Source of the DNA: Ricordea florida
Taxonomy: Eukaryota > Cnidaria > Anthozoa > Corallimorpharia > Ricordeidae
Reading direction: 5' to 3'
NCBI GenBank assembly: GCA_949710005.1
Contig: OX453276.1
Location: 34,632,947 to 34,696,946, forward strand
Length of the DNA: 64,000 nucleotides
Part shown: positions 10,039 through 13,000 of the stretch, piece after piece
Position numbering within the stretch: the first letter of the stretch is position 1
How the letters are laid out: the number at the start of each line of letters is the position of its first letter
The notes under the pieces: model-generated
Database searches by the model: none
Told to the model about the DNA's origin: nothing
What the model saw: only the letters and a program-made list of their open reading frames with translations
Made by a program: the position numbers and the translations under genes

Positions 10039-13000
10039 CTAGGAAGTAACTTCATGAAACACTTCATAATCAGTAACAAGAAAGTTGTAGCTTCCAGCAA
10101 GAAATTCTTTACTGCAGGTGTTACTTGCGGAACATCCCGGCGCGGGCTGGTAAGTATAGCCAAGATTCGAATAAGAGCCGCTGGCTGTGTTGGGGGTGTC
10201 CCGAATGTAGATGTCATAACCACCGCCAAACGTTGGTCCCCTGTTATAACAACTGTATCTGCCATAATGCGGATATCCATGCAGATTCAGGGTGTGTTCG
10301 ATTGGGAAATCCGGATTTAGATTTTCAAAATCTAAACCCGAATTTCCCAATCGAACGCGAAATCCGAAAACGGATTTTGCCTCCGAGAAATCCGTCCTCA
10401 GGGTGGATTTCAATTAAGAAATCCAAATCCGGATTTTTTGGGTTTCCCTTTTTGTCGTTCGATTGGGAAATCCGAAAAAGGATTTGCTAAACTGTTCTCG
10501 TGAACAGCGGACTATCTGAGTGCGCCAACGCATACGCATAATTAGCACAAGATAGTCCGCTGTTCACGAGAACAGTTTAGCAAATCCTTTTTCGGATTTC
10601 CCAATCGAACGACAAAAAGGGAAATCCAAAAAATCCGGATTTCGATTTCTTAATTGAAATCCACCCTGAGGACGGATTTCTCGGAGGTGAAATCTGTCTT
10701 CAGATTTCGCGTTCGATTGGGAAATCCGGGTTTAGATTTTTAAAATCTAAATCCAGATTTCCCAATCGAACGCACCCCCAGTTTAACAGGATTGTATCCT
10801 TGGCTGTTGAACAGTGAGAAGATGAAAGCTTTGTTGTCAGCGGCGTACCCACAAGGACCTGAACAAAGAAGTGAAAAAATTAACGTTTTCCAAACAGAAG
10901 AGAATTAGAACGGGGATCATACAACAGCAACAAAATTAAATATTAGTATTTATTTTTTTCTCAAGCATCTGAACGGGCCTAAATCCTCGAATTTGATTGG
11001 CTGATTACATGCGAGTGACCGGTCCAGCTATTTACGATACGGCCCACGGGCAGGATTTTTTCATCGCTTTAGAAATTTCCTATGTCTTTTCCTACTTGAA
11101 AAAGAAGACACCCAAAAAATAAATAAGTTATTTACCGGGTAAGGTCGGTCAGTATAGGAAAGACTTCGGACATAGTATTTTCCCACACGCACCTCCCACC
11201 CGATAAATAACGTATATGACTTTCTAAATAGTGTAAGATCTGATGCGTTAAAATAGGTGGCTTATCATTCTTTTTTCAATTATTTTTCCAATGGTTCACT
11301 CAAGCGTGGGATCCTCAACCCTGTTCCATTCATCCGGATGATTGTGACCATCCTAAACTCTCACTTTTGAATTACTTACTTTGCCAAGCCACGCTAGTGT
11401 ACCCTCCAAAAATGTAGTTACCAACTTGTATGATTGTTACTGTGGGTCCCCTCCCATCGCAATTTATGTGGAAAGTCGATACAGTCCAGCCGTCAGTGTT
11501 GGCATGGTAACATCTCACGAACCTACTCCGTGCGGAATCCATAAGGACTGGGTTCAAAAATGACCCCAGCTTATCCCGGTAAGCGTTATTATTTTTTAAG
11601 CTGCTGAGAATAAAGGATTCATCAAAACCACCTGGGTAAAAAACAAATTAAGGTAGTAAATAATAGAGTAAGGTGTAAATAACAAATCAATATCATGGGT
11701 TCGAATCCTGCTCAAGGCTGAATTTTTTTTCAGATCTTATCTTGGCAACTGACTATGTTGCTTACATAGCTGCGAGAATCTTCCATTTATCTTTCCATTT
11801 ATCATTTTTATTTATCTTTCTACCGCAGTGCACATGTATCAAATATTCATATATATAAATACATTCAAATCAAGGGTTTCACACGTACAGATTCAACATT
11901 GCTAAGGTTTAATTCAATCAGAACGTTTCCAACAATAGTGAAAACTTACGATCCCAGGTGCAGTTCTTTCCATTTCCGGTGTATCCCGGGTTACAGGAGC
12001 AGATATACGATCCCACGCTATTGGTGCAGTTACCATGCACGTCACAGGGTTTTGGGTCAGCAGTGCATTCATCTATGTCTAAAACACACATGCGCAGTAA
12101 GTTTACCCATTTGTATTGCAATACCAATACGAGTATTTGGACATCGTCCAACAAGTCTGATCTATTGAGTGTAATATTTCTCACATGGCATCTTTTAAAT
12201 CTGACATAGCTCAAAATATAAGCAAAAACATTTCAATCGAATCAAAAAAGATTCTTTTCTTGATAAGTCTAGTACTTTTTCGGACCGATGAATGCACTGG
12301 AGTTGACGAATGCAACACTTTTATTAAGCAACGTGTTTCGAAATATCACATAGCCAGAAATTCCGAACCAAAGTGGGTGGTGCTTATTTCTGTTACGCAC
12401 CAGCACACATGATAACCTGTCAATAACGCTAGGGTGTGATTGGTCCATCTGTTAAAGCCTCGGTCAACCAAAATGGCTTCGCGTAATAAAACTCAGAGAG
12501 GGTATTTATCCGAGCTAAATGCTAATTCATCCGCTCATGCCGACTTTGTTTTGCCAAAGAAAATAATTAAGTACACAAGATCTACTTATTGGGAAGTCGA
12601 AAGGCAAGTGTTTGGCTGTAGCGCATGATTTCTTTTTGCCCGAAAACCAACCAAAAAAAAAATAATTCCAAAATTCCCTCCAAAAAAGCATTATCCACCG
12701 AGCCTCCAGCCTCGTAATCACACCATGTAGCTATCAGTCTTTTATCTGTCCTTGAGCTGATAGTAGCAAAATGGCGATCGTTTTGGCACAGAATTTAGTA
12801 CAATTACTGTTCGTGGATGCGTTTATACTTGCTGAAAGTAAGCTAAAAACAACCTCGTTCGCAGGGTCTCCTCCTCTTCCCGCCCCACGAACGAGGTTGA
12901 GCTAAGAAAGCCGCAAGATTTTCGGGGTGTACAAAGTCTTTTTTGCCGTAAATGTGGAATACCATCTTTGAACTTAAATTATTTGATTGGGATGGATCGA

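Follow-up and report, generated by a model that had tools for sequence, protein, structure and literature searches.

In foldback elements such as Galileo, a short spacer separates very long inverted arms. Galileo itself is assigned to the P superfamily in the accessible part of PMC4168063. The NuwaII group of the PHIS superfamily has a 3-bp target duplication, a preferred target of C|TNA|G, ends beginning with GG and inverted repeats of 13-46 bp, and its reported hosts include one anthozoan, according to the available text of PMC4482050. The same portion of that source gives a TWA duplication for PIF/Harbinger. In the available part of PMC2872659 the CMITE elements of Acropora corals are related to piggyBac, with which they share inverted repeats of 13-14 bp, and 'piggyBac/TTAA' is named there.

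Here we describe a family of long palindromes in the Ricordea florida genome and one member that interrupts a coding exon. The window analysed is a 64-kb stretch of this genome, and all positions refer to it. Positions 10290-10777 very probably represent a short non-autonomous DNA transposon, or MITE, with long foldback-like arms that inserted into the last TLDc exon of a minus-strand gene, in which a Pfam scan recognises PAN, EGF_CA and TLDc exons. The features of the locus are as follows.

10039..10289, minus strand: 3' portion of the last TLDc exon, including its duplication copy, to the native stop TAG at 10041-10039 (frames, paralogues)
10287..10289, plus strand: left duplication copy, TCA, identical in letters to the empty site of the paralogues (family ends, paralogues, duplication count)
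10290..10777, no strand: palindromic non-autonomous DNA transposon (MITE), very probably, 488 bp, ends GGGTGTGTTCGATTGGG / CCCAATCGAACGCACCC (repeat search, own-genome family, consensus comparison)
10290..10517, plus strand: left arm, 228 nt (inverted-repeat search, mismatch count)
10296..10356, no strand: nested hairpin at the element's left end, 30-nt arms, 1-nt spacer (inverted-repeat search)
10518..10549, no strand: spacer (loop), 32 nt (inverted-repeat search)
10550..10777, minus strand: 228-nt right arm, repeating the left arm in inverse orientation (inverted-repeat search, mismatch count)
10709..10773, no strand: nested hairpin at the element's right end, 32-nt arms, 1-nt spacer (inverted-repeat search)
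10740..10742, minus strand: premature TAA stop within the element, 12 codons past CTG 10781-10779 (translation)
10778..10780, plus strand: right copy of the target duplication, CCA, with one substitution (family ends, paralogues, duplication count)
10778..10858, minus strand: 5' portion of the last TLDc exon, including its duplication copy, after splice acceptor TTGTTCAG (frames, paralogues)
11380..11631, minus strand: preceding (first) TLDc exon, open, AG/GT borders (PF07534, E 9.7e-11)
11950..12078, minus strand: EGF_CA exon, open, AG/GT borders (PF07645, E 4e-10)
13892..14131, minus strand: PAN_1 coding stretch, exon borders not fixed (PF00024, E 1.5e-8)

The two arms are 95% complementary, with mismatches at 11 of 228 positions. 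As single-stranded DNA, 10288-10781 folds at -264.9 kcal/mol, against a mean of -63.65 for shuffled sequences (sd 4.13, n=100), and the resulting z of -48.7 excludes a chance origin of the palindrome. The first-pass annotation had placed a 488-bp near-perfect palindrome inside this coding exon, and both the arm search and the fold bear it out. Its 32-bp loop stands, while its arms of 227 and 229 bp become 228 nt each and its borders at 10291 and 10778 shift by one base to 10290 and 10777, where the family boundary GGG...CCC falls. The coding capacity of the element is limited to short minus-strand frames. An Rfam scan of 9800-10900 gave no match, and no second copy was found within the 64-kb window.

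Elsewhere in the 537.8-Mb genome the element is represented by a dispersed, non-coding family of at least 40 loci, the window copy included. The search scored 94 rows over these 40 loci out of 244 first-look candidates, most loci matching on both strands, and the closest other copy among the loci scored matches at 99% over 489 bp. The family ends are GGGTGCGTTCGATTGGGAAA, from which the left end of the window copy departs by one change. At six loci the copy has these termini and is exactly 488 bp long; two of the six (L003 and L004) are a duplicated locus, 99.3% alike. With one mismatch or fewer, the 22-base family end occurs 128 times genome-wide, against none for the backward control; a 17-base version occurs 92 times, again with none for its control. 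The majority consensus of 13 long copies has just 2 mismatches between its 228-nt arms, as against 2 to 13 in six single copies, so most mismatches arose after the family had formed. Palindromes are a known form of fold-back or chimeric artefact in sequencing and assembly. Such an origin has almost no probability here in view of the 40 loci that share a conserved end, the target duplication in most two-ended copies, and the two flanks of the window copy, which are contiguous in paralogues. The MITE reading agrees with the short length, the lack of coding capacity, the target duplications and terminal inverted repeats whose ends stay the same across numerous scattered copies. A description of this palindrome family was not found in the titles and partial texts of the literature consulted, and a search with the end letters GGGTGCGTT and "transposon" returned, judged by title, nothing on cnidarian or Harbinger elements.

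Shorter members include four of 73 bp, one of 80 bp and others of 51 to 394 bp. Hairpins of about 73 bp that resemble the nested hairpin at the left end occur alone elsewhere in the genome, with an exact 3-bp duplication at two of four such loci. L009 and L082 share a host repeat and, at the identical site in it, contain a 487-bp copy and a 181-bp member, respectively; the flanks of the two are 97% alike over 132 bp and 88% alike over 113 bp, and L011 has parts of the same host repeat. The shared site hints that long palindromes are either shortened where they stand or replaced. A 143-bp member in L083 has close flanks partly alike those of L003 and L004. With its near-perfect long arms and nested smaller hairpins, the family should be useful for learning how palindromic MITEs form and shrink.

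The target duplication was counted over 70 loci (L001-L041 without L008, plus L072-L101), of which 38 two-ended, non-redundant copies were retained. Redundant loci were dropped (L008, at the place of L005; L004, the duplicate of L003; L016 and L018, at the places of L072 and L073; L082, with the flanks of L009), as were 28 further loci without two recognisable ends. An exact 3-bp duplication is present in 22 of the 38, compared with a mean of 4.6 and a maximum of 15 when right flanks were permuted over 5000 rounds. Duplications of 2 bp were seen in six copies and of 4 or 5 bp in none. The triplet is preceded by C in 27 of 38 copies and followed by G in 26 of 38. TNA accounts for 9 of the 22 exact duplications and for 34 of all 76 duplication copies; TWA (TAA or TTA) makes up only 7 of the 22. 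TCA is duplicated exactly at L079 and L098, and other duplicated triplets in the family are TAT, CTA, AAA, TTG, TTT and CAA.

At the window insertion the left copy reads TCA and the right copy CCA. The first-pass annotation had recognised a 3-bp duplication, correctly, and had read it as CTG/CAG; the duplicated triplet lies one base over (TCAG/CCAG), which leaves the empty site the same. That the window copy's own duplication is imperfect, and that 16 of the 38 copies lack an exact one, weighs against the proposed explanation. Imperfect duplications also occur in young copies (L001, L006), and our impression is that they are more numerous than divergence explains.

The paralogues of the gene preserve the empty site, which on the plus strand is GAT-TCA-GTT. 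Four of the five paralogous exons fetched as DNA read AAACTGAATC straight across the insertion site, and the fifth (L103) does so with 3 extra bases. Protein matches in the same genome number 34: 28 cross the site unbroken, two come from the window copy, one for each half, and four stop short of the site. Several of the 34 carry stops, and the DNA-fetched paralogues are likewise not all intact, since L104 has a stop a few codons past the site and L106 a later frame shift. An element could also have reached the exon inside a larger copied repeat rather than by its own transposition, as the shared place of L009 and L082 in one repeat and the duplicated L003/L004 locus illustrate. At this site only the 488 bp and a 3-bp duplication part flanks that are contiguous in paralogues, which makes such passive arrival highly improbable. 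Under the proposed mechanism a MITE with very long, near-perfectly matched inverted arms, presumably moved in trans by a transposase, would have entered at T|TCA|G in the last exon, duplicating the 3 bp TCA and adding 491 bp.

An intron at this position in relatives, named beforehand as evidence against an insertion, was sought in the paralogues, and none was found in the five fetched as DNA, where the exon is continuous in all five. This bears on an introner-like reading, in which the element is spliced out as an intron and the protein is unharmed. The exon parts on both flanks do stay in frame, and the end GGGTGCGTT holds a GT somewhat like a 5' splice site. Intact frames, however, are expected after any young insertion, and no minus-strand GT in 10231-10840 reaches seven of nine consensus positions. 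The 3' edge is ...CACCC|TGAATC, with no AG at the border, so the border sequence of the window copy lacks the splice sites by which an introner is removed exactly. Cryptic splicing is conceivable from six AGs inside the element behind pyrimidine-rich stretches (at least 9 of 16), and taken together we consider it very unlikely that the element acts as an intron.

Read as a MITE insertion, the element breaks the protein of the last exon after ...GYNPVKL. Translation gives a leucine, 12 residues and a stop, as the first-pass annotation had stated, and the flanks joined at the empty site form one frame without a stop, in keeping with its claim of same-frame continuation. The exon borders elsewhere in the gene, also described there as intact, appear so by eye for PAN, a second exon, EGF and the first TLDc exon. 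Read across the site, the product of the last exon matches TLDc at 22.9 bits (E 9.3e-5), slightly below the Pfam cut-off of 24.5, and the half behind the insertion alone gives a weak match (E 0.033). The premature stop would remove the C-terminal 82 residues, which correspond roughly to positions 110-168 of the 170-position TLDc profile. The new stop lies inside the last exon, which makes a truncated protein likelier than mRNA decay, and judged from the reading frame this gene copy would have lost its function through a protein without those residues. The dN/dS of the exon is 0.43, 0.50, 0.53 and 1.06 against L102, L103, L104 and L105 (L106 being excluded for its frame shift), values that cannot show events after a young insertion. 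For the PAN-EGF-TLDc gene family this would mean one of many paralogues lost, and the loss of one member is probably tolerated. As an event, the landing of a hairpin-shaped mobile element in a single gene from a large animal family is ordinary; the evidence for it is unusually clear here, and the locus offers a clean case, in a cnidarian genome, of a coding exon broken by a MITE whose empty site is preserved in paralogues.

Against the family consensus the window copy shows nine changes in 488 positions, eight of them transitions. Scored by exact 21-base words on either strand, a method by which a changed base in one arm may find its match in the opposite arm, six of the nine departures are common to L002, L003, L004 or L006, one is common to L032, L033 and L037, and two (10295 and 10341) are in none of the loci compared. 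So few private changes, two or three over 488 bp, indicate a young insertion. The recent insertion of a mobile palindrome proposed in the first-pass annotation is accordingly upheld by the dispersed family with the same ends, its 3-bp duplications, the unbroken paralogous exons and these few private changes. The comparison draws on one assembly; the insertion may be polymorphic, and it provides a ready presence/absence marker.

The piggyBac-type CMITEs target TTAA. The varied 3-bp duplications, with no 4-bp ones in 38 copies, do not fit that type for the present family, which shares with the Acropora elements of PMC2872659, in its accessible part, the character of short non-coding MITEs. Arm structure is as in Galileo, with very long inverted arms and a short spacer. 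Galileo belongs to the P superfamily (PMC4168063, available text), and the present family makes a 3-bp duplication. Like the PIF/Harbinger (Tourist-like) MITEs, a class named in the available part of PMC2872659, the family is short and non-coding, with a 3-bp duplication, terminal inverted repeats and many copies. Unlike them, nearly the whole element is inverted repeat, and the scarcity of TWA departs from PIF/Harbinger proper. The 3-bp duplication, the GG ends (GGGTGCG) and the C...G context fit the PHIS/Harbinger superfamily, NuwaII best, as far as the accessible text of PMC4482050 goes. Arms of 228 bp exceed the repeats of 13-46 bp given for NuwaII, the triplets range wider than TNA, and the 488-bp element has no transposase or Myb/SANT ORF, whereas an autonomous NuwaII partner would encode both a DDE transposase and a Myb/SANT protein. 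The target preference is NuwaII-like only loosely. Assignment to a PHIS-type group is therefore tentative, at slightly better than an even chance, and we infer that a PHIS/Harbinger-type transposase, closest to that of NuwaII, moved the element in trans.

A source of transposase was sought in two sets of loci, and no transposase bearing the family's ends turned up in either. A profile search of the genome for DDE_Tnp_4 scored 150 of 2054 candidates, and the 30 best-scoring loci (L042-L071) were fetched; the family end GGGTGCGTT is absent from 3.5 kb of each. As many as 26 of the 30 are one family with ends TCTCGGTGAGCG beside AT, which are not those of the palindromes, and were rejected as partner. 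These 26 are mostly more than 99.6% alike (lowest pair shown 97.3%), fetching by best score having favoured alike copies; by their similarity they look like a very recent burst and are perhaps ISL2EU-like. Among the 30 loci inspected around 17-base ends (L072-L101), six of them available only in part, frames of at least 120 aa inspected by eye include a single one, in L091, which we take to be Harbinger-like. It lies 2.4 kb from the family end, where the element is a truncated copy, and was taken as a neighbour. L072 and L073 are bounded by family ends (2.8 and 2.5 kb) and were set aside as long copies with a later insert, with no transposase frame seen by eye.

If transcribed within the exon, 464 of the 488 bases of the element would be paired in a near-perfect RNA hairpin. 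It is conceivable, though very improbable, that this RNA, from an element with the hairpin of about 73 bp at both ends as palindromes within palindromes, could supply small RNAs directed at the family as a whole. If true, the broken gene would be a silencing source.

Other repeats and features occur in the window. Just downstream of the gene, 9847-10027 holds a second palindromic element with 85-nt arms, an 11-nt spacer and ends GGTGCGTTTTTATGG. Its best other copies are 94-95% alike (40 scored of 1709 first-look candidates), and compared with the 488-bp family it seems to be of greater age and present in far higher numbers. Upstream of the gene, a minus-strand frame of 185 aa at 19922-20476 resembles, on visual inspection, a fragment of a non-LTR reverse transcriptase. 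The inverted repeats at 42579-42880 and 47663-47967 (AGGGACGGACCATTA...) are alike, contain G/C runs and are perhaps another short element, and two hairpins at 34873-35031 and 53443-53590 have related arms around GTGTTTCTGTAACTCG / GTGTTTCTATAACTCA. GC content is 54-57% over 27001-32000 and 51% over 49001-50000, against mostly 31-46% elsewhere in the window.
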